Below are positions 5,990 through 30,283 of a stretch of DNA of 32,459 nucleotides, in pieces. The notes beneath the pieces were generated by a model. It made no database searches. It had not been told where the DNA came from and was given only the letters and a program-made list of their open reading frames with translations. Position 1 is the stretch's first letter; each line of letters starts with the position of its first letter. The translations under genes and the position numbers were made by a program. The DNA is from Myxococcota bacterium (lineage in GTDB: Bacteria; Myxococcota_A; UBA9160; UBA4427), in contig JAQWNI010000088.1 in NCBI GenBank assembly GCA_029268645.1, positions 1-32,459 on the forward strand, written 5' to 3'.

Positions 5990-8329
5990 TCAGAGGGTTT
6001 GCGGTGGGCGGAGGCGATGGCGTCGACGCGCGAGGGAGACCAAGATGAACAACCCAGAGCTCAGCAGGGCTGTCGCGCCGGGTTCTGGCACGAGGCGAGC
6101 CTGGAAGGTTGGCGCTGACTCATTTCGGCCTCCGGCTCCGACCGCTGGAACCCAGAGGAAGTGATCCTCCGCCAGAGTGGCTTCGAGGGGATTTCCTGCC
6201 GTCACCACTTCAGCGTCACCGGAATGGCCGTGGGGAACGAGCAGCTCTGGATGATCGAAGGGGGCCTGTTCGTAGCGGACCCGGTCGTCGGTCAGGCTGA
6301 GGAGAAAATCGAGCAGGGCCTGTCGCAGGCTTGGATCAAACCTCAAGTCGAGTTGAGGGAAGACGGTTCCGAAGTGTTTGCCAGTGGTCTCGTGATTTCC
6401 GCCTCGCGTGTAGAACTCGATGACTTGCTCCAGTGTCGCCATGCTGCCGTCATGCATATAGGGTGCGGTCAGCTCAACGTTTCGCAGAGTGGGGATCTTG
6501 AAGGCATGTGTGGCGGCCTCTCGCATTCGGGCGTTGCTCGGGCTCTCCAGCTCCGCGAGGGCTGCCGCGGGAATCGGCACATAAGCGCCGTCCGGAAAGA
6601 AGCAGTCAGTGGAACTTTGGCTCTGAGGCTGAAGACCTTCCGCCTCGGTGAAATAGATGGGGTGGGGACCGGGTTCGTTCCGTGCAATAGGGAGGTCGAG
6701 GTCACAGGGGCGCACCTCAAGAACCGAGGGGTCTACCACTTCATTGGTCTGTCCGGCGAGAAGCTGAAGGTATTGGGCGGAGAAGGAAAGCGGGTGGCCA
6801 AAGGGATCCGTTCCCCCAAGTCCTGGGTCAGCGCCATCTGGGGTGACGCCGGTGGCGGCAAACCCAGTATCCACAAATGCGCTTCCACCGAGCAAGGAAA
6901 GGCGAGTCAATACATTCGAGCTGGTGCTTACCGCAAAAGTCTCGTTTCCGAATGCTTCCGGATCCTGTTCCACCAAAAAGGCGTTCGTCTCCACGGCGGC
7001 GGAAGTGAACACGGGGCCGATGTGGCAAAGGTTGCAGTGGGCCGTCCGAAAGACTTCAAAGCCGGCCTGGGCCGATTCGCTGAGATCCGTCGGGGACCCG
7101 TTTTCGTCCTTGGTGCTGAGGTCGAAAGGAGACTGATCGCTTACCAGGGTCTCGATATAGAGCTGAATGGAAAGTCCGAAGAACATGGCGAAATTGGCTT
7201 CGATCTGTGTGTAGGGCTCCGTGTCCCCTGTGCTGGGCGCTCCAAAATCACCCGTGCCAGTGTGAGACCAGTACCTTGCATCAAAAGATTCTCGGATGAG
7301 ATCGCCATACGAGGTATTTAGGCCGGGCTTTGATTTTCCCGGTGCGCTGAGTGCGTCGTCGCCGAGCACGCTGTCGTTCCAATGGACTCTTTGTTGAGCC
7401 AGCGGCATCCGGTGGAGTAGTTTGCGTCCGATATCCTTGAATGTCCGCGAAGTGCAACTCATCTCGATATTGCTGATGCCTGGAGACACGGCTTGGGAGG
7501 CCAGCGAGCTATTTTCGAGTTCGAGGCTTTGGTGCTCGACTTCGGCTGGCCCTGTGACGACCCATACCCCCGCATGAGGATCTCTTGGGCCCCATGGACT
7601 GCTGCCATTGAAAATGTTGTTGGCCGCTCCATCCCAGAGTTGGCGGTATGAAAACGCTGCGTTGATCACAGTCGGGGCATGGCGATTCATCACTCTGCGC
7701 GTCCCCGTTCCTTCAACATGAAAAATCGCATCGGGTTCGCGATCGCATACATCATCAGTGGCGCTGATCACGGAGGTTAAGAAGTCGCCGCCGAAACTCC
7801 CCGATGAAGAGACGACGTCATCACTTTCGTAGAGAACCGGAGAAACCGGGTTCAAGGGGTCGGTTCGTTGATGAAAGGGAAAGTCTTCGGGCTGAAGCGT
7901 GTAGTTGGGTCCGCGCAGCCCGCCGGTCGGCGAAACATCGAAGGCCACAGTGGGGATGACCGGATCTCGACCACTTGGTGCGAGCTGGTTTCGGATTCTT
8001 CCATCTGCTCCGGCTTGGAAGTGGCAGCTCGCGCAGGCGATGCCATCGCTGCCCACCGTTTGATCCCAGAAAAGCGACTTGCCCAGTACGGTGGCCCGTT
8101 GAGCATTGGTCACGATCGGTTCCGGTCCATCGAGGAGACCGGGGACGGCCGGAGGCGTGATGCCCTGTAAGGAGACCGGCTTGGGTCCGAAGTGGGCCCA
8201 GGCCGGTGTCAAAACGAGAAACCCACTTCCCAGCGCTGCCGCAGCAGCGAGGGCGGATTGAAGACCCGGGCGCCGAGGTCGCGCTTTTCGGGCGTCGTCG
8301 TTCCTGTTCCCGTGGATCAAGCGGATCAC
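5990..8329 (-). CDS. Diheme cytochrome c peroxidase-like protein with PEP-CTERM anchor
   Basis: A 779-residue exported protein with two c-type heme motifs: CASCH (C99, C102, H103) and CNLCH (C432, C435, H436). The neighbouring text [26 protein letters not shown] is characteristic of the diheme cytochrome c peroxidase/MauG superfamily, whose members reduce H2O2 or oxidise protein substrates in the periplasm. A signal peptide ends near residue 45 (AWA). The C-terminus (from 747) has [10 protein letters not shown], a hydrophobic stretch, then ARRRHR, a PEP-CTERM signal processed by exosortase; no exosortase gene is in the window. It is far longer than classical CcpA (about 320-350 aa), with roughly 300 residues inserted between the hemes. 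It lies 32 bases after the other PEP-CTERM gene and 22 before the RegB-like kinase, which suggests a redox-regulated operon. Confidence 0.88.
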
Positions 8330-8361
8330 GGTCTTGAAGGCACGAATCTGAAAGTCGGGTT

Positions 8362-9186
8362 TCAGGGTTTTTGCCGCACTGTGGCGAGTGCAGACAACCC
8401 GAGGCCGATCATGAGCAACGTTGAGGGCTCGGGCACCGAAGTCACCGTCACGTCAAACAATCCGCCCGGGAGCCCTGGTTGGGTGCCACCGACGAAGATT
8501 GTGTAGTGGCCCCCGCTCACCCCGCTGAGCACGACTTCGGCGGTTCCGCTGCTCGCGCTCCCCGAAAACCCCGAAACGTAGATATTCGAGAGTCGGGCAT
8601 CGTGGGCCCCGGTCAAAATTGTCTCCCCCCAACCTGTGGGGGCGCTGACTGAAGGCCCGGAGATCGAGTATCCCAAGGTCTCCAACATGTTTCCCCCCTG
8701 GCCATTTTGCATCCAGAGGGTGCCGCTGTTTCCAAGCGGGCCATAGGCGTTGAACGAATGGGGCGTGCCATTTCCGGTGGAGGAGGTTTCTCCCGCATAG
8801 CCGGTGGTGCCGCCGTCGAAGAGATTCGCTCCACTGGTCCAGACGCTCAGGCCCGGGGCAAATTGAGAGGGGTCATCGGCGGTGACCCGAATTGTGACCT
8901 GCGGGCTGGCACCGAGTTGGATATTCCACCAATCGCCGGCGTGGGCCCAGGCCGAACCGTTCAAAGAGGGGTTTCCAGCCATCGTGGCGCCGCCGCCGCT
9001 CTCCGACGCGTTGGCACTTTCTCCCGGGTTAACCGTGACCGTGCCACCGCTCCAGCTTTTGGGGGCGATCGCGCCCGCTGCGAAAACAGAGGACGAAACC
9101 CCGAATCCGCTCAGGATCCAGAGGGCCAACAAAAGGGTCTTGCTCAAGGGGCCACCGCGAAAGCGAATGGACAGGGTCTGGGACAT
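8362..9186 (-). CDS. PEP-CTERM sorting domain protein of unknown function
   Basis: A 274-residue secreted protein. A signal peptide (about 1-36) ends near SSVFAAGA. The middle is rich in Gly, Ser, Thr and Asn with few charges, looks beta-rich, and has no domain I recognise. The tail [18 protein letters not shown] followed by a basic end is a textbook PEP-CTERM signal beginning at about residue 251, which targets the protein to exosortase for cell-surface or exopolysaccharide-associated anchoring. A GGAG sits 7 bases before the ATG. It is the first gene of the minus-strand run that continues with the PEP-CTERM diheme protein and the RegBA pair, so the two surface proteins may work together. 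Function is unknown. Confidence 0.85.
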
Positions 9187-9496
9187 GACGGCTCCGAATT
9201 GATTGGGTGGTCCGGAATGAAAACATTACGCATTTTCAGACCTTTCCACGGATCAGAAATAAGAATCAGATTGCCAGAATGCGTGGCCGCTCCAATGCGG
9301 TGCATTGTCGCAGGGCGAGAAACTGGGAAGATTCGGGCCCTCCGTTCCGATGGACGCGAGCGGGCTCGACGCTCCCGGCGGGGAAGTGCGACAACTCGCC
9401 GCAGTCCAAGCCGTCTTCCTCTTTTACACTGAGGGCGGGTCCACAGTCCGAGCCTCCCGGATTCAATTGGGTCGCCGCGCGGAACCAGGGAGAGTC
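9187..9496. other. Divergent intergenic region
   Basis: About 310 bases separate the divergent PEP-CTERM gene (minus) and the secreted-protein pair (plus), so it should hold both promoters. The part next to the minus-strand gene (about 9215-9270) is visibly richer in A and T. I see no convincing -35/-10 pair, binding-site repeat or small gene. Confidence 0.45.
9488..9494 (+). promoter_or_regulatory. Ribosome binding site fixing the start at 9497
   Basis: GGGAGAG lies just upstream of the ATG at 9497. It supports this start over an in-frame ATG at 9305, whose extra 64 residues look non-coding. Confidence 0.6.
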
Positions 9497-10114
9497 ATGC
9501 ATCATCGAAAACTGGGCGCAGCGGAAAAGAGCCCCGCCGATCGCTCAAAGCGCCGGCGGCGAGTGGGTCGATTTCATCGCGGCGAATTGATTGTTGGACT
9601 GGTGAATCTCGTTTTTGCAAGCACTGCCGCGGCGGTGACCGGGACCGGCACACTCCCAAGCGATGCGTCCGTGGCCGAGTTGATCCAGGTCGAATGTTTT
9701 GACGACGGTTCCGGGAGCCCCGCTTCGCTCTCGGCACAGCTTGAAGATCTGGCCCCGGCCCTGGCGCCCTTCGTCAGCGTTCAAATTGTCCGGGGAAGCG
9801 CGGCGACCAATGGGACCGATCCGGTGGACGGGGACGGCGTCGCGAGCCCTCAGGTTTTTGTCGACGGCGGGCCGGGGGATTACGACGTCTTTGTGGATAA
9901 AAGCGGCCCCGGTGAGGAAGACTGGCGCCTGACCCTCTCTTGCTGGACGGGCGCCGGTGGAACGGGGGTCGAAACGGGCACGCTGGTGGAGGGCTGGGTG
10001 GATCCCGTGCCTCTCACGGGTCCGTGGACGGGATGGGTGCTCGGTTCAGGGTTGATGGCGCTCGGAGCTGGGCTGCTGGATCGGCGGCGTTGGAAAAGAG
10101 GAGAGAGGCGATGA
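9497..10114 (+). CDS. Secreted CFDDGSGSP-type protein with C-terminal membrane anchor
   Basis: A 205-residue protein that I do not recognise by name. A basic N-terminus leads into a hydrophobic signal segment ending near AAAVTG. The globular part carries ECFDDGSGSPASLSAQLED and, later, GGPGDYDVFVDKSG and LSCWTGAGGTG. It has one conserved Cys near each end of the domain, which may form a disulfide in the periplasm. The C-terminus has PVPLTGPWTG, a Gly/Leu-rich helix, then DRRRWKRGERR. This motif-helix-basic arrangement resembles bacterial C-terminal sorting or anchoring signals, but the motif is not PEP. Its stop overlaps the next gene by ATGA, and that gene encodes a clear paralog, so the two are made together. 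Confidence 0.75.
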   Translation: MHHRKLGAAEKSPADRSKRRRRVGRFHRGELIVGLVNLVFASTAAAVTGTGTLPSDASVAELIQVECFDDGSGSPASLSAQLEDLAPALAPFVSVQIVRGSAATNGTDPVDGDGVASPQVFVDGGPGDYDVFVDKSGPGEEDWRLTLSCWTGAGGTGVETGTLVEGWVDPVPLTGPWTGWVLGSGLMALGAGLLDRRRWKRGERR

Positions 10115-10587
10115 GTTCTTCGGCTCCCACACGCCTGCTGTCACTGGGTCGGGCAGGCTGGTTCGGATTGGTTTTCCTTTTGTCGGCTGGCGCCGGGGGC
10201 TTGGCGGCAGCCCACACTCAGAACGGAACGCTCGGCTCGGTGGCCTCGGCCACCGACCACTACGAAGTGACGTGTTACGACGACGGGAGCGGCTCTCCGC
10301 AGTCGCTTTCTGTCGAGATACGGGACAGTTCGCCCGGAGCACTGCCCCAGGTGAGCGCCCACGTACAACGCAATGAGACCGTGGCCAGCACGAGTGATGA
10401 CACTGCAGCCAATGGCAGCCCTGGGCCTGAGATCCACATAAATGAGGGCCCGGGTGTCTACCGCGTGTTGGTGACGAAGACGGGCAGTGGCACCAAGTTT
10501 TATTCTGTGAGCTTTCACTGCAACGTCGGCCTAAACGGAACGGGCGCCCACGCAGGCTCGGTGATCTCGGTTTTGCAGTCGCAATAA
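10111..10587 (+). CDS. Secreted CYDDGSGSP-type protein, paralog of the upstream gene
   Basis: A 158-residue exported protein with a signal peptide ending around GGLAAAHT. The mature domain reads TCYDDGSGSPQSLSVEIRD and later EGPGVYRVLVTKTGSG and FHCNVGLNGTG, aligning block for block with the preceding protein and keeping the same two Cys. Unlike its neighbour it has no C-terminal hydrophobic anchor and ends at VLQSQ, so it is probably free in the periplasm or released. The start ATG at 10111 overlaps the upstream stop (ATGA) and follows a GAGGAGAGAGG Shine-Dalgarno region. An in-frame ATG at 9940 lies inside the previous gene and is rejected. The role is unknown; the pair sits between a heme-peroxidase cluster and a flavin-transferase operon, which suggests an envelope redox role. 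Confidence 0.78.
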   Translation: MSSSAPTRLLSLGRAGWFGLVFLLSAGAGGLAAAHTQNGTLGSVASATDHYEVTCYDDGSGSPQSLSVEIRDSSPGALPQVSAHVQRNETVASTSDDTAANGSPGPEIHINEGPGVYRVLVTKTGSGTKFYSVSFHCNVGLNGTGAHAGSVISVLQSQ

Positions 10588-10606: not shown

Positions 10607-11506
10607 TCAAGTTGCCTGAAGGCTTCCGCCGGTTTGGCCGTGGACGTCGACATAGAAGTGAGGAAGCCCCATCTCTTCAAGCCAACTCGGTCCGCTGGTT
10701 TCGCGGAGGAGTGCGATTGTTGCGGTGCTGCCCGCCACCAAACAGAAATCGGCGGCGACACTAACCGACGCCAGATGAGCCACGGGCCAGCCCGTCCGGG
10801 GCGAGAGAACGTGTCCGTAGCGAACCCCGTTGATCGTGATGCAGCGCTCGTAGTCGCCGCTGCTCGCCAGGGCGCCCGATCGCATCGGTAGCGTGCCCGC
10901 AAGCTGTTTGGGATTCTTCGGATCTCGGATCCCGATTCGCCACGCCTCGCCATTGGCCCGCGGTCCGATGACGCGGATGTCGCCGCCTAAATTCACCATG
11001 CCGTGGACCAGTCCCGCTTCGACGCAGAGGGCGGCCACGCGGTCCGCCGCGTACTCCTTCACGACTCCCCCAAGGTCGAGTTCGAGCCCTGCTTGATCGA
11101 AATGCAGATGGGGGCGTGCCCAACGCAATTTCCGCCAGCCGACTCTGTCGAGCAGGGCGGCAATCGACTTGGCTTCGGGAAGCCGGTTACTGTCGAACTT
11201 CCAGGCCCGGCGCAGAATGCCCGAGGTCAGATCAAACAAACCTTCGCTCTGCACGAAGCAAGCTTCCGCGTAGTCAAGTAGGGAAGCGGTTTCGTCGTCG
11301 ACCTCGTAGGTCCCCCCCCGTTCAGCGATGCGATTGATTTTGGAGAGTAGGCTTGAGGCTCGGTAGCGCGAATACCGGGCCTCAAGTCTTTCGACCTCTC
11401 GCAAGGTGATTTCGATCCCTCGACGTGCCTGCTCAGGGGAGATCCCGTCGAGCTGCAGCTCGCAGGGGGAACCCATCGCTTTAAATCCGTGTCGTAAGGT
11501 CTTCAT
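10607..11506 (-). CDS. apbE: FAD:protein FMN transferase (ApbE family)
   Basis: A 299-residue enzyme that uses FAD and Mg2+ to attach FMN through a phosphoester bond to Thr or Ser of target proteins outside the cytoplasm. Family motifs appear in order: GSPCELQL near the N-terminus, SRYRASSLLSKIN, FDLTSGILRRAW, LDLGGVVKEYAADRV, MVNLGGDIRVIG, ALASSGDYER, GHVLSPRTGWPV and AGSTATIALL. The last motif has AGS where many ApbE proteins have the metal-binding ADA, a variant worth noting. No clear signal peptide or lipobox is visible, so export may use an atypical N-terminus or a missed start. I chose the ATG at 11506; the frame stays open to 11683 inside the upstream gene. It lies 17 bases after the DUF3570-fusion gene and is the last gene of the operon. 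Confidence 0.92.
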   Translation of the reverse strand: MKTLRHGFKAMGSPCELQLDGISPEQARRGIEITLREVERLEARYSRYRASSLLSKINRIAERGGTYEVDDETASLLDYAEACFVQSEGLFDLTSGILRRAWKFDSNRLPEAKSIAALLDRVGWRKLRWARPHLHFDQAGLELDLGGVVKEYAADRVAALCVEAGLVHGMVNLGGDIRVIGPRANGEAWRIGIRDPKNPKQLAGTLPMRSGALASSGDYERCITINGVRYGHVLSPRTGWPVAHLASVSVAADFCLVAGSTATIALLRETSGPSWLEEMGLPHFYVDVHGQTGGSLQAT

Positions 11507-11523
11507 GCCTTGGCCGAGGTTCG

Positions 11524-14103
11524 TTAAAAGGTCAACTGGGTCGTCACAAAGAGGCTCCCGGTTCGCTCGAGTTGGAAACCATTGAAGTCGCTGGCCAGAG
11601 GCTGGAGCCATTCGATGGCGAAGGACTGACCGCGAAACAAGCCCGTCGGTACCGTGGCTCGGAGTCCGATCCCAAGATCCCAAAAGTGTCCACCGTAATT
11701 TTCGGGAAAGTCGGGTGGAGTGGTGGTGGAGTGGGGGCCGTTGTATTCGCCTTCAATGGCCCCTTGATAGGAGTAAACGCCCCGTAAGGTGCCGGTCAAC
11801 CAAGGGAGGACAGCGAATCCCCCCCAGCCCTGTGCCCGCGCCACGTTTCCGAGTCGATAGCCCGAAGCATTTCGATCCTGCATGCGAATCACGCCGCCGA
11901 TTTGAGCGCCCCAAGAAAATCGTTTCCAGGCACCAAGATAGGTGAGGCTTGGTAATGCATCCCAGGTGCCACTGCCGAGCTGCATGCCGTAGTGAATGTA
12001 ACCGAGGTCTTCTTGATGGCTGCGTCGGAATTTCTCCGAGACCGATCCGGTGGGTGCACTGAAGCCAACCCCCAGATGGACGTGTTGCTGGCCGTATTCA
12101 AGGAGTCTCACCAAGGCGAAGAAAGGCAGGTCTCCCCAGCCTCCGGTCGCATGCCGAAGGTGCTGAGCATGGACGTCGGGGATGCCCCCTTCGAGGGGCC
12201 GGAGGCTCATTTCCGTATCGACGTAGCTGGGCATGACCATCAAGGTCAGCCAGTCCGTGGCGGCCACCATCAGCTCAAACATGTGTCGATTCATCGTCAT
12301 CGAGCTCGGTGCTGTGCTGCAGCCTGCCGGCGGACAGGCGGAGTTGACGAGCGTGGTGTCCGAAGCCACCCGATTTCCTTCGACCATCGACCCTCCGGAG
12401 AACATCGTGGCGAAGCGATACCCGAGCATGAAGTCCCCAGGCTGGTCGAGCATGTGGGCCGCCATAACCCCCGCTGGTGCGAAGCCACCGATGTGGTGGG
12501 CGTGGGCTCCGTGCTGACCGGATTGGCTCAACGACAGCGCGGCGAGATCGATCACGATCGCCCCACTCGCCGTCCAACCATCGAAGTCAGTAAAAGCACC
12601 CTCGCCCCCTCCACCGAGTTTGAAATCCCCTGCGTGGGCGAAGTAGTCGAAGCCGGCCTCAAGAGTGATTCCTTTGCCGAGGGAGCGTGAGAGACTGACT
12701 CCGCCCCCAAGGCTTCCAAAGGCCGAAAGTCGTGGGTCGCTGCTGTAGGAGCTGGGGAGTAGGTTGGGGTTCCAGGGAGTGATCACGACTTCTCCCCCCA
12801 CGACCGAGACCGTCCGAAAGGCCTGGTCAGAGATGAGGTAGTTGACATAGAAATCAGCAGCCGATTGCGAGTAGTAACGAAAGCGAGGCTGCAGCAGAAA
12901 GCCCAATCCGATGGGCTGACCCACTTGCAGGTCGAAGGTGTGAGCATTGATTCCCCAGTCGTCATGCCCATAGGAGTAACCGAGCCGAACCGCGGTGTCC
13001 GTCAAGTCGAGATGGCGCGTGACGCTGGCGCCGATCGCCAGTTCGTTGCGTTGATCGGGGCGTCGTTCGAGCAAGGCATGAACATTGCCGTAATAGCCTC
13101 CCGGTGGAGCGAGGCCCTGTTGGGCCGGGTCGAGGAAGGCGACTTCGACGACTCGGTAGGGGTTGGCTAGGTATCCGGTGGCGTAGCGGTAGGCGATAGA
13201 AGCCTCAAGGCTCGTGCTGCGGTCAAGGAGATGACTCAAACCGAGACTGACTTGAACGTCGTCGCGGTTCCCCCGCAGCGTACGATTCCCTGATGGATCG
13301 ACATAGATCAGACTCGCATAGCTGCTGGCGTCGATGTAGGGCGAGGCATCGTGATCGAAGATCGCGTGGGTCTCGCTATGCGCGTAGCCGAGATCGAGAG
13401 AGAGTGTCGTGCTTTGTGCGTTGAAATCGAGACTGCTGCCGAGATCGAGAAAAAGAGAGGTGTAGTCGGGCTCCCAGGAGGCCCCGCCGCCCAGACGGAC
13501 GGCACCTGACTCAAGGTCTTGTCCGATTGAGAGGTCGATTTCTCGGCGTGTTTCAGGGGAGGCCGAAGCAATGGTGTGCACGAGGCGGTTGTCGGTTCCG
13601 CCGGTCAGATTTCCAAATCCATCGGTTGCCAGAACTGAAAAGTCGGAATCGAAGTAGAGGCTGCCTTCGAGATAGGGGGTGGCCCCTGAGACGCCATCCG
13701 GCTCGGTTGGTCGATTTCCGCGCAACTCCCACGGTGCTGTGGCGATGGGGGTCGCCCCGGACCAAGTGTCTTGAAGGAAAGCGAGATCGAAGCGCAGGGT
13801 GTCCGAGAATGTGGCTCCTCCCGAGACTTCGAATGTATCGACAGCAATCGGCTCGAAGGCGCTGAAAATCCCATCCAGATTACGAGCACCTTCTTGATAG
13901 TGTCCGATCTGAAGCGCGCTGCCTCCCTGAAGAGATGAAGCCTGCACGACTGAACTGGCGAGGAGTGGCAAAGCGAGGGCAGCCTGGGTCAGGGCCCGCA
14001 GGCCACCGTGAGAACCTCGGCTTCGGGGAGAGAGCGCTTCGAGGGCGAGGGTGTGAGAGGTGGGGTCGGATGAACGACGCCGGAAAAAGCTAGTAACAGC
14101 CAC
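11524..14103 (-). CDS. DUF3570-type outer-membrane protein fused to a second barrel-like domain
   Basis: An 859-residue exported protein with a GTG start that overlaps the DUF4266 gene by 14 bases. A signal region ends near residue 55. Residues about 60-525 look like a DUF3570 barrel: GGSALQIGHYQEG, then IAVDTFEVSGGATFSDTL, then many alternating strands. Residues about 530-859 resemble the His/Met-rich family with GVMAAHML, a MLGYRFATMF block and a C-terminal TTQLTF, whose final Phe suits outer-membrane insertion. Two SGAT tetrapeptides, at 115-118 (WSGATP) and 136-142 (DGVSGATP), match the Thr-flavinylation consensus used by ApbE, whose gene follows. I infer that this protein may carry covalent FMN. 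The domain fusion and SGAT motifs are seen in the sequence; the FMN link is a prediction. Confidence 0.82.
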   Translation of the reverse strand: MAVTSFFRRRSSDPTSHTLALEALSPRSRGSHGGLRALTQAALALPLLASSVVQASSLQGGSALQIGHYQEGARNLDGIFSAFEPIAVDTFEVSGGATFSDTLRFDLAFLQDTWSGATPIATAPWELRGNRPTEPDGVSGATPYLEGSLYFDSDFSVLATDGFGNLTGGTDNRLVHTIASASPETRREIDLSIGQDLESGAVRLGGGASWEPDYTSLFLDLGSSLDFNAQSTTLSLDLGYAHSETHAIFDHDASPYIDASSYASLIYVDPSGNRTLRGNRDDVQVSLGLSHLLDRSTSLEASIAYRYATGYLANPYRVVEVAFLDPAQQGLAPPGGYYGNVHALLERRPDQRNELAIGASVTRHLDLTDTAVRLGYSYGHDDWGINAHTFDLQVGQPIGLGFLLQPRFRYYSQSAADFYVNYLISDQAFRTVSVVGGEVVITPWNPNLLPSSYSSDPRLSAFGSLGGGVSLSRSLGKGITLEAGFDYFAHAGDFKLGGGGEGAFTDFDGWTASGAIVIDLAALSLSQSGQHGAHAHHIGGFAPAGVMAAHMLDQPGDFMLGYRFATMFSGGSMVEGNRVASDTTLVNSACPPAGCSTAPSSMTMNRHMFELMVAATDWLTLMVMPSYVDTEMSLRPLEGGIPDVHAQHLRHATGGWGDLPFFALVRLLEYGQQHVHLGVGFSAPTGSVSEKFRRSHQEDLGYIHYGMQLGSGTWDALPSLTYLGAWKRFSWGAQIGGVIRMQDRNASGYRLGNVARAQGWGGFAVLPWLTGTLRGVYSYQGAIEGEYNGPHSTTTPPDFPENYGGHFWDLGIGLRATVPTGLFRGQSFAIEWLQPLASDFNGFQLERTGSLFVTTQLTF

Positions 14104-14323
14104 AGCCTCCTCCGCCGCTCCGCTCTCTCGGCGTTGAGCCCTCTCGACTCCGGTTCACGTGGGTGCGCAGGCGAGTGCTGGGCTCTTCGGCGCTCTCGCT
14201 CATTTGCGGTTTGGCGAACACTTCGCGTTGCCAGGGCTTCGGACTCGCGCACCCACCGGCTGAACCGATGACCCAGAGCGTGACGAGGGCCAGGAAAATT
14301 CTAGCTGGACAGCAAGGCATCAT
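14090..14323 (-). CDS. DUF4266 small lipoprotein-like protein with GGGGCGC tail
   Basis: A 77-residue protein. A hydrophobic N-terminus leads to GSAGGCASPKPWQRE, where C25 is the probable lipidated Cys (the lipobox is imperfect, A-G-G before Cys). The text PWQREVFAKPQMS, THVNRSREG and the very end SGGGGCGCY are the marks of the DUF4266 family, which has no established function. The two Cys of the tail could bind metal, form a disulfide or receive electrons. The start overlaps the thioredoxin stop by ATGA and the stop lies inside the start of the DUF3570-fusion gene, so production is coupled in this four-gene operon. The thioredoxin neighbour makes a redox role for the Cys tail plausible. Confidence 0.85.
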   Translation of the reverse strand: MMPCCPARIFLALVTLWVIGSAGGCASPKPWQREVFAKPQMSESAEEPSTRLRTHVNRSREGSTPRERSGGGGCGCY

Positions 14324-14919
14324 GGCTGATGAGAATCCGTTTTCTGAGTTTCCGCCAACAGGGCCTCGACCTCGGCCCGAATCTGCTGCTGAACAGCGGG
14401 TCGAAAACCTCGATGGATGAAACGCACAACTCCGTTGTGATCAATCAGAAAGCTGGACGGCATTCCGGGTAGATCAAAGGCCGCCGGGCATTCTCCCGTC
14501 GGGTCGACGGCCACCGTAAAGTCGACAGGATGCCGAGACAGGAAATCGATCGCATCCGGGCGATTTTCATCGACGTTGATCGCCACCACTTGGAAGCCGT
14601 GTTCTTCCAAACTGTGTTCAAGGGTGTCGAGGAAAGGAAAGGCGTGGGCACAGGGGGCACACCAAGACGCCCAAAAATCAACCAGGGTGACCGGCCCCCA
14701 GGCCATCTTTTCGGAGTGAAAACGAGACCCGTCTCGCAATAATTCGAGAGAACAGGCTGGGGCCGGCTCGCCAACTTGGACAGCGAGGCTCGGTGAGGCC
14801 GATCCGACCAGGCAGGCGAGGGCAAGCCCCCGGGCGACTCGCCGTGCAGTGGATCCAACGCCCCTCCTCCTCTTGGACGAGGCGATCGTGGGTTTCAGGG
14901 ACTGGATGCAGCGGCTCAA
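14320..14919 (-). CDS. TlpA-like periplasmic thioredoxin
   Basis: A 199-residue exported thiol-disulfide protein. After a basic N-terminus and a hydrophobic segment (about 29-46, ending SLAVQ) comes a thioredoxin fold with the active site WCAPC (C87, C90) in DFWASWCAPC, and the cis-Pro at about 153 in GMPSSF. The central insertion with VVAINVDENR is typical of the TlpA/ResA/AhpC-TSA group. Such proteins reduce or isomerise disulfides in the periplasm, often for cytochrome or metalloprotein assembly. It is the first gene of the operon leading to DUF4266, DUF3570-fusion and ApbE, and overlaps the second gene by ATGA. The likely partner is the Cys-tailed DUF4266 product, but that is inference. 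Confidence 0.9.
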   Translation of the reverse strand: MSRCIQSLKPTIASSKRRRGVGSTARRVARGLALACLVGSASPSLAVQVGEPAPACSLELLRDGSRFHSEKMAWGPVTLVDFWASWCAPCAHAFPFLDTLEHSLEEHGFQVVAINVDENRPDAIDFLSRHPVDFTVAVDPTGECPAAFDLPGMPSSFLIDHNGVVRFIHRGFRPAVQQQIRAEVEALLAETQKTDSHQP

Positions 14920-18942: not shown

Positions 18943-21939
18943 TCAGTCGCTTGCAGTCGGTCGGGAAGTCCGGGGATAGAGGCGCGAGCGAACATCCGCG
19001 GCCGACGGATCGTCAGGTAGTTGGCCCGCTAGCGCGCGGGCTCTTGAGAGAGCCTCAGCGTTGCGCCGTGGTGCGGTCAATAACTTGTCGAGGGCTTGAT
19101 CAAGCGTCACCCAAGCTTCATTTGGCCGGCCTGCTTGAGCGGCGGCTCGGGCCCGCTCGATTTGAGCCTCCCCTTTTGACGAATAGGCAAGTCGCTCGTC
19201 GATGAACGCAATGGCTTCCTCGATCCTTTGGGGATCATGTCGTTCGACGCGCCAAAGCGCTCTCAACCGCAAGGCCTCATCATAGAGCGTTTCACTGGGT
19301 TCGATCCGGGCGAGTTCCGAATCGAGTTCCGCGAGAGCAGCCCACTGCTGGCGCTCGGCTCGCTCGCGTGCGCGATGGATGGCGCGGGCCGAATCGGACG
19401 CCGATGGCGGCTCCGGGAACGGCATTTCCAAGAGCTCGGCGATCTCTTCCACCGCGGGTGAATCCGGCACAAGGACATGGGCTTGTTCGAGCCTTCGGCG
19501 GGCCCGGCCTGCTTCACCTCGCATCGTCGCGATGAGCGCGAGGGCAAGAGGTTGATCAACGCCATCGAGCTCTCGGGCAACGGCCGTTGCTCTTTCGTTT
19601 TCTCCTCTCTGCGCGAGCGATAGAATGAGCGGGAGCGCATCCCCAGTTTGGGGACGGGCTCTGAGTGGATCGTGCCTGCGGACCAAGGCATTGAATTGCG
19701 GCACGGTCAGCGCCCCTTGCTCGAGCCTCGATGAGCGTGTTGCGAGCTGGTTCCAATCATCGGTGTTGGGCGCTGCGCCTTGGGCGAGCGCGCGAGCGCC
19801 GTCTGTGTCCAAAACCCAGGCTGCGGCGATCTCTGAAGGGCTTCGGATGCCGAGTTGCTTGAAGTGCAGAGGATCCTGTTCGATGGCGCGCGCACTCTGG
19901 TTGAGGTCGAGGGGTGTATTCGAGGCAATAAACACCAAAGCCGGGCCATGGGGACGGTAAATCTGGACTTCGGGAAAAACGGCCGTCAGCGTCGCGAGGA
20001 GAGATCGAAGGAGCGGCGCATCGATGAAGCCGAGTCCGATCCACTGCACGAACACACCATCGGGTGTGAGGCGGTTTTCGACCAGTTCAAAAAATTCTTG
20101 GGTGTAAAGGTGCGAAGCGCCCGCCGTCCATGGATGAGAGGGCTGGGAGATAATCATGTCATAGGGTTCTTGAGCCAGCGTGAGGGCACCACGGGCGTCA
20201 TTTTGGATAAATCGGAAACGAGGATCCGAGAGCGGGTCTCGCAGCCGGGTTTCGCCGACGCGGCGGTTTGCGGTCACCACCTCGGGTTCGAGTTCGATGA
20301 CATCCACCGAATCGATGGAAGGGGGGATCCCCTCAAGGGCCACCGCTCCGCCCAGCCCAATCACCAGTCCACGCTTCGCCTCGGGCCGGAGCGCAGCGGG
20401 CAGCCAGCCCAGCGCCCGGGCTTCGGCCCCGCGTTCCGGGGTGCTGGAATAACGAACGATGCGAGATTCGGGTAGTCCGTTGGTGTAAAGGGTGAAGCCG
20501 CTGGGCTCCTCGAGGAGGACCACCGTTGAGGAGCGGCCGGCGGCTTGAAAGTGAATTTGTTCAGGGTCCGTTTTGCTTTGATAGAACGGCGAAGTCAGCA
20601 AAAGATTCCAGGGATTCGTGAGTGGCACAAAGAGAAGAACCAAGGCGAGTCCGCCCACACAGGCCAGCACGGCCACCGAGCGAGGCTGTGCGCGCCAGGC
20701 TGCGAAAGCGGCCAATCCGAGGCTGAGCGTAGTGCCGAGCAGAGCCGTTCCCGCGAAGTGCAGCGTAGGAATCAGGAAGAAGCCCGTGGCAACGGAGCCC
20801 ACGATGCCGCCGACTGTGTTCCAAGCGTAAACGCGTGCGGTGGCCCCGGCGCTTTCCTCAGGGTTGGGAGTCAACAGCCGGACCGCGAAAGGGAAGGTGG
20901 CGCCGAGACACAAAGCCACCGGCAGCAAAACGACCGCGGCCAGCGGCGCATTGGTCCAAAGCGACGCTCGCCAGCCCGCCCCGAGCGCTTGGCCGAGGGC
21001 AGGCAGTTGGTCGGCGGCGAGGAATGCGGCCAGTCCGCAAGCAGCCACCCCCAGCTCGGCGATCGCAAGCCCGATGGCGGCTCGTCCGGCCCGCCGTGCG
21101 ACGGCGCCGCCGACCGCAGAGCCCACCGCAATCCCGAGCAGAAAGCTTGAAAGCATTGTTGTGAAGGCGAAAAGGCTGCCCCCCAGAATCTGGGAGAGCA
21201 GTCGCGTCCACATCACTTCATACGAAAAGGAAACGGCCCCCGACAGCAACATCAAGGGCAGAACCCAGCGGTGCTCAAGGCGGCTCGTCAAAGGAGGAGA
21301 GGCCAGCGGGGCCGCGGCGCTTCGCGAAAGGGCGGCTGCGGCCAAGAAGACGAGGAGGTTTCCGAGGGCGCCCACGTAGACGGTTTGGCGAAGGCCGATT
21401 TGCGGAAGAAGGAGAAAGCCCGCGATCAGCGTCCCCGCAATGGCCCCGGCGGTATTGATGGCGTAGAGGCCGCCGACCCGGGGACCAATTTCCTCGTGTC
21501 GTCGAATGGCGTGACGGGCGAGGAGGGGAAGCGTGGCCCCCATCAGGCCGGTGGGAATCATCATCAGCACAAAGGCGGAGACAAAACGGAAAAGGGTGGC
21601 GGCGGTCCCGGGTTCCGCCGGAACGGCCTGAGCGAACATCGCGACGTAGGCCGCAGTCAGGCCTTCTAGACCGAAGGGCAGGGCCAAGGCCGACCCCGCG
21701 ATGCCCAATTCAAGGGCGCCGTAGACCCAAATCGGCCGGGTCACTTTGGGCGCGAAGCGGGCGGCCGCAGCCGAACCCAGGGCCAAGCCCCCCATGTAGC
21801 CGGCGAGGACCACCGCGACGGCAATTTCGGAAGTTCCGAAGACAAAGGAGAATTCGCGGGTCCAGGCTGTTTGGTACAGCAGCGCGGAGAACCCCGAGAG
21901 GAAGAAGCAGAGGAGGATCACGAAAAAGCGGAGGTCCAT
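18943..21939 (-). CDS. Fused multi-TM / spermidine synthase-like protein with TPR-like tail
   Basis: A 998-residue inner-membrane protein of the class called fused MFS/spermidine synthase. The first 440 residues have many hydrophobic helices, beginning FFLSGFSALLYQTAWTRE, a family hallmark. Then comes a soluble methyltransferase-fold domain with GLVIGLGGAVALEG (near 521), DVIELEPEVV and NDARGAL. In true spermidine synthases a conserved Asp follows (VDSSDP); here the site near 597 reads ISQPSHPWTAG, lacking both Asp. Aminopropyl transfer is therefore doubtful. The last 300 residues are Ala/Arg/Glu-rich helices suggestive of TPR-like repeats. The biological role of this fused class is unclear. 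It lies upstream of the acyl-CoA dehydrogenase gene by 78 bases on the same strand. Confidence 0.88.
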   Translation of the reverse strand: MDLRFFVILLCFFLSGFSALLYQTAWTREFSFVFGTSEIAVAVVLAGYMGGLALGSAAAARFAPKVTRPIWVYGALELGIAGSALALPFGLEGLTAAYVAMFAQAVPAEPGTAATLFRFVSAFVLMMIPTGLMGATLPLLARHAIRRHEEIGPRVGGLYAINTAGAIAGTLIAGFLLLPQIGLRQTVYVGALGNLLVFLAAAALSRSAAAPLASPPLTSRLEHRWVLPLMLLSGAVSFSYEVMWTRLLSQILGGSLFAFTTMLSSFLLGIAVGSAVGGAVARRAGRAAIGLAIAELGVAACGLAAFLAADQLPALGQALGAGWRASLWTNAPLAAVVLLPVALCLGATFPFAVRLLTPNPEESAGATARVYAWNTVGGIVGSVATGFFLIPTLHFAGTALLGTTLSLGLAAFAAWRAQPRSVAVLACVGGLALVLLFVPLTNPWNLLLTSPFYQSKTDPEQIHFQAAGRSSTVVLLEEPSGFTLYTNGLPESRIVRYSSTPERGAEARALGWLPAALRPEAKRGLVIGLGGAVALEGIPPSIDSVDVIELEPEVVTANRRVGETRLRDPLSDPRFRFIQNDARGALTLAQEPYDMIISQPSHPWTAGASHLYTQEFFELVENRLTPDGVFVQWIGLGFIDAPLLRSLLATLTAVFPEVQIYRPHGPALVFIASNTPLDLNQSARAIEQDPLHFKQLGIRSPSEIAAAWVLDTDGARALAQGAAPNTDDWNQLATRSSRLEQGALTVPQFNALVRRHDPLRARPQTGDALPLILSLAQRGENERATAVARELDGVDQPLALALIATMRGEAGRARRRLEQAHVLVPDSPAVEEIAELLEMPFPEPPSASDSARAIHRARERAERQQWAALAELDSELARIEPSETLYDEALRLRALWRVERHDPQRIEEAIAFIDERLAYSSKGEAQIERARAAAQAGRPNEAWVTLDQALDKLLTAPRRNAEALSRARALAGQLPDDPSAADVRSRLYPRTSRPTASD

Positions 21940-27058: not shown

Positions 27059-27580
27059 CTAGACCGTGAGGCCTGGTGTGGCCAAGACGACTTGCTTGAT
27101 GGCTCGCCTGTATCGGACATAGCCTGTGCAGCGGCAGATATGCTCCCCGACTGCATCCTCGATCGCTGCATCGATATCGGCTTTGGGAACCGGGCTCCGT
27201 GAAAGCTTGTCCAAAAGACAATAGGCCCCCATCAGGAATCCGGGTGCCGAGTAGCCACACTGGAATGCGAAGTTGTCAAGAAAAGACTTCTGCAAGGGGT
27301 GGAGTTCGTTTCCCTCCGGAAGGCCCTCGACGCTCTTGATTTCGGTTCCGTTCAGGTATTCGATGGTTGTGGAGCAAGACCGAATGGCCTCCCAGTGAGA
27401 GTCCGGCACCCGCCGCCAAGCGACCGTGCAGACGCGGCACACCGATATGCCACAACAGAATTTGGTTCCGGTTAGGCCGAGATCTTCGCGCAGGAAGTCG
27501 TTCAGCCATTTGGATCCATCGATTTTTTTGCGGTGGACTTTTTGGTTATTGATGGTGAGATCAAGATCAATCATGCTCAT
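27059..27580 (-). CDS. 2Fe-2S subunit of molybdenum hydroxylase (xanthine dehydrogenase family)
   Basis: A 173-residue iron-sulfur protein of the IorA/CoxS type. The plant-type cluster has C43, C48 and C51 in CGISVCRVC and C69 in RSCSTT. The second, alpha-helical cluster normally has CGxC and CxC: here C149 and C151 in ICRCTGYVRY are present, but the first pair reads QCGYSAPGF, with S111 in place of the usual second Cys. Either Ser is a ligand or the cluster is altered. The N-terminus has no signal peptide, so export would depend on the Tat-bearing large subunit. It starts 3 bases after the large-subunit stop and is followed by the diheme cytochrome gene, so electrons would flow Moco to 2Fe-2S to cytochrome c. 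Confidence 0.9.
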   Translation of the reverse strand: MSMIDLDLTINNQKVHRKKIDGSKWLNDFLREDLGLTGTKFCCGISVCRVCTVAWRRVPDSHWEAIRSCSTTIEYLNGTEIKSVEGLPEGNELHPLQKSFLDNFAFQCGYSAPGFLMGAYCLLDKLSRSPVPKADIDAAIEDAVGEHICRCTGYVRYRRAIKQVVLATPGLTV

Positions 27581-27583
27581 CGC

Positions 27584-30283
27584 TCAACTCCACTTTGCCC
27601 GAATTTTTTCGGCGGTGATGGGCAGGCTGCGAAAACGATGTCCCGTGGCGTGTGCGATCGCGTTAGCGATGGAGGGTGCGACCGGCAAAAGGGGAACTTC
27701 CCCCATGCCTCGTGCGGGAGCATCCGGCGATTCCGGTGGGAGGAGGACCTTTTCTGTTGATTCGATCGCGCAGTCTCGTGCGAGCGGGACAAAGTATCGA
27801 TTGAGATTCCAAGTACCGTTGGCAGCTCCGTCCGCCGAGTTGGGTAAGTCTTCCAGGAGCGCGTGGCCGATTCCCATGGCCCACTGACCGTCCATCTGAC
27901 CTTCGACAAGATCCCTCTGGATTATCTTGCCCGGAGCGGCATAGTGGACCCCCCCCACGACTCTCGGTTCACCGGTTCTTCGATTCACCATCACCGAAGC
28001 AAGGGCGCCGGTGGAGCCGAGCGTCTGGCCATCTTTCATCCAGAGGTCTTCAACGGTGTAGAGCTTGGGGTTTTTGCGATCGATCAATTTCCATTCAGCC
28101 TGACCGCCAAGTTGCACGGCGAGCGCATCGATTTCCCATCGATCCGTTACGTCTCCGACTGTGTAGTCGGCACTGACCCACACCCCACTGTGGAATGCAT
28201 GGATCATGCTTGATACTGGAAAATCTTTCTCGTGCATTCTCTTTGCGAGATCGCGAAGAGGGATGGGCGCAAAACCTGAAGCGCTGAGCTGGCCTTGCTT
28301 CCACCGAATGTCCTTCGGCTTGATCCCCGCAGCTCCGCGGCCCCACAATGAGCGAGCAGCCGGCAGCATGCCGGTTGCCAGTAAGACTTGGCTGGCTTGC
28401 TCCACCGCGTGAGCCCATCGAGAGGATCCCGAAGAGGCTTTCGTCGAGTTCCAGATCACAGGGGTCCAGCGTGGGTTGTCCTTCTGCATCTTGAAGCCAT
28501 CGACGAGCTTGAGGTTTTCGAATAGGGCCACCTCTCCGGTCTCGATCTCGTCGGCATTCTTCCCGAGAGAATCCGCGGTCGAGAGGGCCAGGGCTGTCGC
28601 GAGCCCCTGGCCCATGTCGATCGAATTGGTCGTCAGGATGAGTTTCCCCGTTGGGTCCAGCGAGACAGCCGCCATGACGGCATCGGCGCCGGTTCCGTAG
28701 TTCTTCATAGCGAGGGCGAAGCCGACTCCAAAGGAAAACTCGTCGGAGGAGAGATCTCTCTTGAGGATCTCTCGATCTCGCCAGAGCTCGTGGTTCTTTG
28801 CGCTTTCGCAGATTTCGCGAAGGCCGGTCGGTGCCACCGGGGCCCCCGTCGAGATGGGCGTGCCTTTTTTGAGGAGGTTTTGAATACGAAGGTCGATGGG
28901 GTCGAGCCCCTTTTGGACGGCGATCTCGTCAACGAGGGATTCCACGGCAAAAAACGATTGGAAGGCCCCGAAGCCGCGCATGGAACCGGCAACGACGGCG
29001 GTCGTATGTTGAGGGCGAGACCAAATGTCGGCGTAATCGAAGTTGTAAGGGCCCGTTCCCAGGATTCCGGCCACGCTTGCTACATAGGAACTGACGTTGA
29101 TTCGGCCACCGCCATTAAGCACCGTGTAGTTGCGAATTACCTTGAAGGTATTGTCTTCTTCTAGGCCGAAGCTGAGGTCTATTTTAGACGCATGGCGCTT
29201 CACGCCGGATTGGAACTGTTGAAAACGATCGTGTGCGATTCGAATTGGTTGGTCGGAGTAGGCGGCGGCCAATGAGAGCCAAAGGCAGAGGATCGAAGTG
29301 TCACGGCCACCGAATCCGCCACCGGGATAGGCGGCGTAGAGGTGGACCGTGTCTACGTCGATCTTGCAATCGTCTGGCTCGAATAGTTCTCGTGATGAGT
29401 TGACGTCGTAACCCGGTGATTGGGTGCCGATCAAGAGATGCATGGTCTTGGTTTTCGGGTCTAGCCAGCCCAGCCCGTTTTCTGGTTCCATGAACATGGG
29501 GTCAGTGATCTGGGTGCTGTAGCTTCCCTGAAATACCTCGAGATCTCCGCTTTCAAGCATGGCGTCGATCTGCTCGACATATTCCATGGCCTCAGCATTA
29601 CGCTTCCCCGGTTCGCTCGGATGAACCGGCCCACCCAGGGTCTGCGCGAATTCTTGGTCGCCATTTTTTTGGGTGACGTGGATGATGCTTGTTTCCGGCG
29701 AATAAAATCCCAAATCCGGCACAGGAACGCGCTTTCCTTTGCGAGCTCCCTTTTCCTCATACAGAAGGATCCTTCGAGCCTCTTCGAGTGCCTCGCGTTC
29801 GTCGAAGAGAAGAATCGCGGCCTCTTGACCAAAATATCTGGGCCGTTCGCCTTTGCGCAGCAGGTAGTTTCCGCCGGGATAGTCGGGCCTTGCGACTCCG
29901 ATCCCGTCCCGAGCCAGGTCTTCACCGGTGATCACGATGGTTGGGCGGATGGCCTTGGGGAGTGCCTTTAGATTCACGCCCTCAAAAAGGTGATCGACGA
30001 AGTCGGTTCGCAGTACGAAGGCGTGCCGGTACTGGGTGGGCCAGCCTGGCATGTCCCGGGGATGGAAGTCTCGCGCGTAGATTTTTTGCCCTGTGACCTT
30101 GGCCAGTCCATCAATTCGGTAGTGTGCTTCGCCGGGCGGGCCACTCCAGGCGTTCGGCGGATCCATGACGGCTGCCTGGGCTGTGCCACTCGCCAAAGCA
30201 CCGAAAGGCACCAGTCTTGAGACCAACACGGCGGTTCCACCGCCGACCGTAGACTTGATGAATTCGCGCCTTGTTTGCCACAT
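27584..30283 (-). CDS. Tat-exported molybdopterin-binding large subunit of molybdenum hydroxylase
   Basis: An 899-residue catalytic subunit of the xanthine dehydrogenase/IorB type. Such enzymes hydroxylate aldehydes or N-heterocycles with water as oxygen source. A Tat signal TRREFIKST opens the protein (R5, R6) and ends near TAQAA, so it acts in the periplasm. Moco-binding motifs seen are GGGFGGRD (321-328), AGSMRGFGAFQ, and DMGQGLATALA. The catalytic Glu is probably E862 in GMGEVPLLPVAPS. It is longer than typical large subunits (about 700-770). A GGGGAG ribosome site precedes the ATG. No FAD subunit gene is nearby. The small subunit and cytochrome genes follow within a few bases. The substrate cannot be inferred; a porin gene is divergent. 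Confidence 0.92.
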   Translation of the reverse strand: MWQTRREFIKSTVGGGTAVLVSRLVPFGALASGTAQAAVMDPPNAWSGPPGEAHYRIDGLAKVTGQKIYARDFHPRDMPGWPTQYRHAFVLRTDFVDHLFEGVNLKALPKAIRPTIVITGEDLARDGIGVARPDYPGGNYLLRKGERPRYFGQEAAILLFDEREALEEARRILLYEEKGARKGKRVPVPDLGFYSPETSIIHVTQKNGDQEFAQTLGGPVHPSEPGKRNAEAMEYVEQIDAMLESGDLEVFQGSYSTQITDPMFMEPENGLGWLDPKTKTMHLLIGTQSPGYDVNSSRELFEPDDCKIDVDTVHLYAAYPGGGFGGRDTSILCLWLSLAAAYSDQPIRIAHDRFQQFQSGVKRHASKIDLSFGLEEDNTFKVIRNYTVLNGGGRINVSSYVASVAGILGTGPYNFDYADIWSRPQHTTAVVAGSMRGFGAFQSFFAVESLVDEIAVQKGLDPIDLRIQNLLKKGTPISTGAPVAPTGLREICESAKNHELWRDREILKRDLSSDEFSFGVGFALAMKNYGTGADAVMAAVSLDPTGKLILTTNSIDMGQGLATALALSTADSLGKNADEIETGEVALFENLKLVDGFKMQKDNPRWTPVIWNSTKASSGSSRWAHAVEQASQVLLATGMLPAARSLWGRGAAGIKPKDIRWKQGQLSASGFAPIPLRDLAKRMHEKDFPVSSMIHAFHSGVWVSADYTVGDVTDRWEIDALAVQLGGQAEWKLIDRKNPKLYTVEDLWMKDGQTLGSTGALASVMVNRRTGEPRVVGGVHYAAPGKIIQRDLVEGQMDGQWAMGIGHALLEDLPNSADGAANGTWNLNRYFVPLARDCAIESTEKVLLPPESPDAPARGMGEVPLLPVAPSIANAIAHATGHRFRSLPITAEKIRAKWS

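Follow-up and report, generated by a model that had tools for sequence, protein, structure and literature searches.

Which protein is modified by the FAD:protein FMN transferase (ApbE) of a compact four-gene operon, and what function might the modified protein serve? These questions are raised by a stretch of 32,459 nucleotides from a bacterium of the phylum Myxococcota, referred to below as the window, which contains the following genes and motifs:

14320..14919, minus strand: TlpA/ResA-like periplasmic thioredoxin-fold protein of 199 aa with a probable signal peptide (Redoxin, 1e-23)
14650-14661, minus strand: C87 and C90 of its TlpA-like active site WCAPC
14090..14323, minus strand: small DUF4266 lipoprotein of 77 aa with a lipobox-like GSAGGC (PF14086, E 3.1e-14)
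14096-14104, minus strand: CGC in the Gly-rich C-terminal tail of the DUF4266 protein, which ends in ...GGGGCGCY
11524..14103, minus strand: DUF3570 protein fused to a predicted COG4313-like barrel, 859 aa, with a probable signal peptide (PF12094, E 1.3e-84)
10607..11506, minus strand: ApbE of 299 aa, no signal peptide (PF02424, E 3.7e-67)

The genes are tightly packed: the TlpA-like and DUF4266 genes overlap by 4 bp, the DUF4266 and DUF3570 genes overlap by 14 bp, and 17 bp separate the latter from apbE. This layout, described earlier in a sequence-only reading, is borne out by the ORF positions and the Pfam families. The apbE reading frame is listed from 11683, and its true start is most likely the ATG at 11506, where the catalytic domain begins. 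The same gene order recurs in most of the 20 operons taken from related genomes and in at least 61/80 loci of other bacteria, and therefore the arrangement is not a matter of chance.

It is known from the work of Méheust et al. (2021; PMC8238504) that DUF3570 proteins occur among orphan apbE clusters and carry two conserved [ST]GA[ST] motifs, and in the Chlorobium luteolum protein flavinylation at both sites was demonstrated experimentally. The same study reported gene clusters in which ApbE and DUF3570 are accompanied by a thioredoxin-like protein and DUF4266. It pointed out the CxC in DUF4266, while the function of these clusters was left open. The window's TlpA-like protein matches Redoxin and not PF13899, the family named there. 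The sequence-only reading had proposed the DUF3570 protein as the substrate of ApbE, served by a CxC lipoprotein and a thioredoxin, which agrees with both the published flavinylation and the published clusters; its central inference is therefore correct, and not new. Its statement that the window holds no known flavinylated partner was wrong, since DUF3570 is itself a demonstrated ApbE substrate. The neighbourhood of the operon's apbE showed no partner of the FMN_bind, NqrB/C or RnfG kind; another contig carries FMN_bind genes, beside a second ApbE. The operon also contains no DsbD gene (two DsbD_TM genes are found elsewhere in the genome), and since 316 of the published clusters are likewise devoid of DsbD, this absence leaves membership of the broader system unaffected. 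What is new is the fused subtype and its context. The earlier reading had missed the prior publication, the identity of the second barrel, the wider copper-linked context and the ApbE without a signal peptide.

Three positions of the DUF3570 barrel are relevant to the attachment of FMN:

13750..13770, minus strand: flavinylation site 1, D112-T-W-S-G-A-T118 (by alignment, the canonical first site of DUF3570 proteins)
13678..13698, minus strand: motif 2, D136-G-V-S-G-A-T142, within an insertion specific to the fused subtype
13546..13569, minus strand: ASASPETR, residues 179-186, at the position of canonical site 2, with Ser182 kept and the motif Gly lost

The motifs WSGATP (T118) and DGVSGATP (T142) had been recognized previously, and the second had been singled out as close to D-x-x-SGAT; in fact both fit the full flavinylation signature D-x-x-[ST]-G-A-[ST] given in a 2025 review of ApbE (PMC12052999). 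Conservation had been suggested as a check on these sites, and for T118 it came out clearly: site 1 is kept in 21/21 apbE-linked DUF3570 proteins, that of the window included, and in Myxococcota copies found by protein search, i.e. independently of the contig-scan pattern. Within the contig-scan set its invariance is partly the product of selection, because one of the two scan patterns contains QDTWSGAT. For T142 the outcome was mixed: GA[ST]P is invariant in 69/69 aligned fused-type proteins, but the preceding S and D vary, and this is not the canonical second site. The latter reads [ST]GA[ST] in 15/17 unfused proteins and SxASPETR in the fused ones, in which the residues corresponding to Ala181 and Ser182 are invariant (69/69). 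In one model protein, replacing the Gly of the motif by Ala reduces flavinylation by half (PMC12052999), and thus S182 may or may not be modified. Judging from a barrel geometry derived from the secondary structure and hydrophobic alternation of a structural model, T118 and S182 would be placed on adjacent strands, pointing into the barrel interior, beyond the lipid-facing belt on the side of the long loops, which is presumably extracellular.

The cellular location of ApbE is the next point. A hydrophobicity scan (not SignalP) found no hydrophobic N-terminus in 91/95 ApbEs, a set in which a few loci are counted twice; the enzyme of the window operon is among the 91. Of the four exceptions, two serve as controls: the second ApbE of the window genome (G000) and that of its relative G019. 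Because this ApbE is signal-less and the barrel is exported, modification would take place before export. Cytosolic ApbE is known in Klebsiella, where it acts on a cytosolic substrate. A signal-less DUF3570 protein made in Escherichia coli was flavinylated, mostly as insoluble protein (PMC8238504), and by analogy this suggests that pre-export flavinylation is possible. The locus thereby raises the more general question of the route by which a signal-less ApbE modifies an outer-membrane protein. The ApbEs of fused operons (34 proteobacterial and four from the window and its relatives) form a single clade (SH-aLRT 100) that excludes their counterparts from 17 unfused operons, even where both kinds of operon reside in the same genome. 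On this evidence, the fusion defines one operon subtype.

The DUF3570 Pfam domain spans only residues 36-507 of the 859, and no Pfam family, Phenol_MetA_deg included, was matched by window residues 505-859. The predicted organization of the protein is as follows:

12547..13938, minus strand: N-terminal DUF3570 barrel, residues 56-519 (16 strands by our count)
12433..12546, minus strand: His-rich linker, residues 520-557 (low-confidence part 526-539)
11527..12432, minus strand: C-terminal Met-rich barrel, whose closest single-barrel PDB match is the COG4313 channel 4rl8

An AlphaFold model of residues 56-859, built from a 69-row alignment (pLDDT 89.9, pTM 0.85), contains two sets of strands joined by the His-rich linker. 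Foldseek placed about 320 columns on 4rl8 (E 2e-13, TM 0.71-0.72 by target length) and also on FapF; for the whole fused chain, matches to large barrels reached a TM, by query length, of no more than about 0.3. Our reading is that one chain forms two barrels, of which the C-terminal one is COG4313-like. The second barrel contains 5.9% Met, as opposed to 0.9% in the first, with one stretch reaching 24% in the alternate-residue spacing MxMxMxM, and 17% of the linker residues are His. Columns corresponding to window residues 602, 604, 608, 612, 622, 624, 632 and 707 are 97-100% Met, and residues 606 and 630 are conserved Met columns too. Strong constraint acts on positions of the second barrel. 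A Cys pair of this barrel (CxxxxC, residues 590 and 595), 99% conserved in fused proteins, is a possible partner for the thiol proteins of the operon. Among 148 related genomes, relatives of the second barrel that stand alone are frequent; their surroundings were uninformative, with no conserved copper neighbours. A related architecture was observed on plasmid pMSC49c of Methylosinus sp. C49 (L154:5126-13008), where a Met-rich barrel is fused through a His-rich linker to a different outer-membrane barrel.

The full fusion is present in 3/148 related genomes: apart from the window genome, G019 has one copy of it and G082 has two. Both of these relatives carry an unfused operon as well, and the coexistence of two fused and one unfused DUF3570 operons in G082 (L032, L033, L034) suggests distinct roles. 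A contig scan revealed 186 related stretches; the 80 of them that were listed belong almost entirely to Methylococcales and Nitrosomonas, in addition to the record of G019 (Myxococcota). Of 369 gammaproteobacterial genomes surveyed with profiles, 131 matched one or other domain and four contained the full-length fusion. All four fall within the 11 genomes of this set that encode PF02461 (PmoA/AmoA), a co-occurrence with a naive p of 4e-7 (1.5e-5 without the query genome), the counts not being phylogenetically independent. PF02461 was found in 10/12 named fusion genomes, and one of the remaining two is a Nitrosomonas draft. No PmoA/AmoA was detectable in the window genome (about 83% complete), G019 or G082, and hence particulate methane or ammonia monooxygenase as a requirement for the fusion was rejected for Myxococcota.

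Two gene families, c2 and c5, accompany the fused subtype: c2 is present in 74/80 and c5 in 61/80 of the fused loci listed among the 186 stretches, and both are absent from all 17 unfused operons. In the window the first is represented by two genes:

10111..10587, plus strand: small secreted c2 protein within a long ORF from 9940, convergent with apbE
9305..10114, plus strand: second c2 homologue with a C-terminal membrane/sorting-like tail, true start uncertain

Between the stop codon of the second homologue and the likely ATG of the gene that follows there is a 4-bp overlap. These homologues (E 5e-43 and 1e-37) end 20 bp from the end of apbE; elsewhere, their relatives sit just upstream of TlpA in fused operons. 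No c5 homologue was found in the window genome, at its completeness of about 83%. The c5 gene adjoins a fused operon in G082, lies elsewhere in G019, and occurs in no other of the 148 relatives (naive p 3e-4).

The secreted c5 protein has a mature N-terminal His (H1) and W152 in 40/40 sequences, an invariant Cys25, and His23 in 39/40. By sequence it has no PDB or Pfam match (DUF1775 in 0/31 members). Its likeness to YcnI was predicted from the motif before the fold search; the top five PDB matches of the c5 model (pLDDT 95.3) were then all YcnI (E 2e-4 to 5e-4, TM 0.72-0.75 by target length), at 6-8% identity, i.e. a match at the level of fold only. In YcnI, the N-terminal His and a Glu bind Cu(II) together with a Trp close by (PMC8424229).

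Several other neighbours were recorded. In 29/80 fused loci, secreted HEAT-repeat proteins (family c8, L072-L151) are encoded between c5 and c2, some with an N-terminal region resembling the secretin/TonB short domain. Window positions 18943-21939 (minus strand) encode a protein of 998 aa that combines spermidine-synthase and MFS-like parts; proteins of this kind occur near fused operons in 30/80 loci, but the family is broad and we treat the proximity as probably coincidental. The region 5990-9186 (minus strand) encodes a MauG/cytochrome c peroxidase-like protein of 779 aa, whose tail is PEP-CTERM-like, and, adjoining it, a 274-aa PEP-CTERM protein with a sub-threshold match to copper-binding CorA. 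In methanotrophs, the CCP/CorA pair handles copper. Gene 8362-9186 was considered as a CorA copper protein and rejected (Pfam E 0.024, below the cut-off, and no PDB match). Subunits of a molybdopterin-type dehydrogenase (Fer2_2, MoCoBD) are encoded at 27059-30283 (minus strand).

Our observations comprise gene content, motif conservation, the fusion, co-inheritance, co-occurrence and predicted folds, and FMN attachment has been shown by others for a relative only (the C. luteolum protein; PMC8238504). From these we infer an electron route, an order of flavinylation and export, an orientation, and copper as the metal. We give about an even chance to the conclusion that the operon belongs, as a fused subtype, to the DUF3570 flavinylation system already known and is most likely devoted to copper. 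In the mechanism that we propose, the signal-less ApbE would attach FMN to Thr118 of the DUF3570 barrel and possibly also to Thr142 or Ser182; this would probably happen ahead of export, while the precursor is still unfolded. Electrons would pass from a DsbD-type inner-membrane donor to the TlpA thiols, to the CxC tail of DUF4266 and then to the FMN, which would sit in the outer-membrane DUF3570 barrel, in its extracellular half. The flavin would reduce Cu(II) at the cell surface, Cu(I) would then enter through the covalently linked, Met-lined second barrel, and the secreted His1/YcnI-like and c2 proteins, where present, would bring Cu(II). In its most complete form the hypothesis describes an outer-membrane flavin cupric reductase, i.e. 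one polypeptide combining an FMN barrel that reduces surface Cu(II) with a Met-lined barrel that imports Cu(I), which receives its FMN in the cytoplasm before export, serves the copper monooxygenases of methanotrophs and ammonia oxidisers, and has been exchanged with Myxococcota; this combination we put forward only tentatively, as possible rather than probable.

Copper is favoured by the co-occurrence with monooxygenases, the partner with a predicted YcnI fold, the array of conserved Met residues and the His-rich linker, which bring it to roughly an even balance. Counting against it, metal binding, reduction and transport are all predicted, PmoA/AmoA was not found in the three related fusion genomes, nor a YcnI-like homologue in the window genome (about 83% complete), the YcnI match is one of fold only, and stand-alone copies of the second barrel have no conserved copper neighbours. 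Moreover, on a Methylosinus plasmid a relative of the second barrel is flanked by a PepSY_TM protein and FeoB, and the FeoB neighbour points to iron as much as to copper. The same flavinylated electron transfer could indeed serve ferric iron or extracellular acceptors in general, with the second barrel passing Fe(II) or a chelate, and 25 published clusters of the DUF3570 type include the ferrous transporter VIT1, for which iron assimilation was proposed (PMC8238504). We nevertheless regard this as unlikely, though worth keeping in view: the fused subtype tracks genomes with copper monooxygenases and the YcnI-fold partner, conserved Met arrays fit Cu(I) better than Fe(II), and no iron transporter was recognized among the most recurrent neighbours of the 80 fused operons. 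The presence of two thiol proteins in the operon and of invariant Cys residues in its partners would also be explained if TlpA, the DUF4266 CxC and the flavin barrel reduced Cys-containing surface proteins (the YcnI-fold protein with its four invariant Cys, the c2 proteins, the CxxxxC loop of the second barrel), in disulfide upkeep instead of metal reduction. This seems improbable, as it leaves the copper-monooxygenase association, the Met array and the invariant N-terminal His unaccounted for.

The remaining alternatives concern the fusion itself. Taking into account the fold match to 4rl8 (TM 0.72 by target length) and the Phenol_MetA_deg match of a stand-alone relative (2.5e-7), the second barrel might take up hydrophobic or aromatic compounds through its channel, a role that has been proposed for COG4313 proteins, with the flavin barrel performing a redox step on the compound; Met and His arrays would be unusual in such a channel and no catabolic neighbours recur, which makes this quite improbable. 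Slightly less credence still is given to an ordinary DUF3570 system without any fusion-specific function, whose distribution in methanotrophs and nitrifiers would reflect ancestry and gene transfer between them. The occurrence of the fusion in Myxococcota without detectable PmoA/AmoA is consistent with that explanation, while the two extra gene families, absent from the 17 unfused operons, and the strong constraint on the second barrel argue against it.

To our knowledge, the passage of copper across the outer membrane is poorly understood in methane and ammonia oxidisers without methanobactin. Should the dedication to copper be correct, this step could be assigned to a concrete, conserved operon with predicted chemistry that is amenable to deletion in tractable strains. 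A function would also be gained for one branch of the DUF3570 flavoproteins, to which no role had been assigned in 2021. Our search of the copper literature found no paper naming the fused operon, and MEALZ_0810-0811, which are induced by copper limitation, could not be tied to it.

Compared with known systems, the window operon shares with the published DUF3570/DUF4266/thioredoxin-like/ApbE clusters (PMC8238504) its four families, the CxC tail of DUF4266 and DUF3570 site 1, but differs in (i) the fusion to a second barrel, (ii) the degenerate canonical site 2, (iii) the new GA[ST]P motif within an insertion, and (iv) the linkage of fused operons to c2 genes and, elsewhere than in the window, to YcnI-fold genes; the word 'fusion' does not appear in the main text of that paper. 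The C-terminal barrel is predicted to have the fold of the COG4313/Phenol_MetA_deg channels (PDB 4rl8), from which it is distinguished by its Met content, the lack of a Pfam match and its covalent attachment to a barrel of the flavinylated type. The c5 protein, known from fused operons elsewhere and not from the window, shares with YcnI/DUF1775 (PDB 7me6, 7mek; PMC8424229) the predicted fold, the mature N-terminal His and the Trp, but has no DUF1775 match and carries His23/Cys25 near the position of the YcnI Glu (23 residues after the His). CorA of methanotrophs (PMC3912023) has the common theme of surface copper binding in bacteria with copper monooxygenases, and no recognizable relation to the proteins of the fused operon. 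Finally, CrpH and other PepSY_TM periplasmic metal reductases (PMC13038864) resemble the proposed system in extracytoplasmic copper reduction supporting cuproenzymes; they are haem-based proteins of the inner membrane, whereas the fused operon is predicted to place covalently bound FMN in an outer-membrane barrel.
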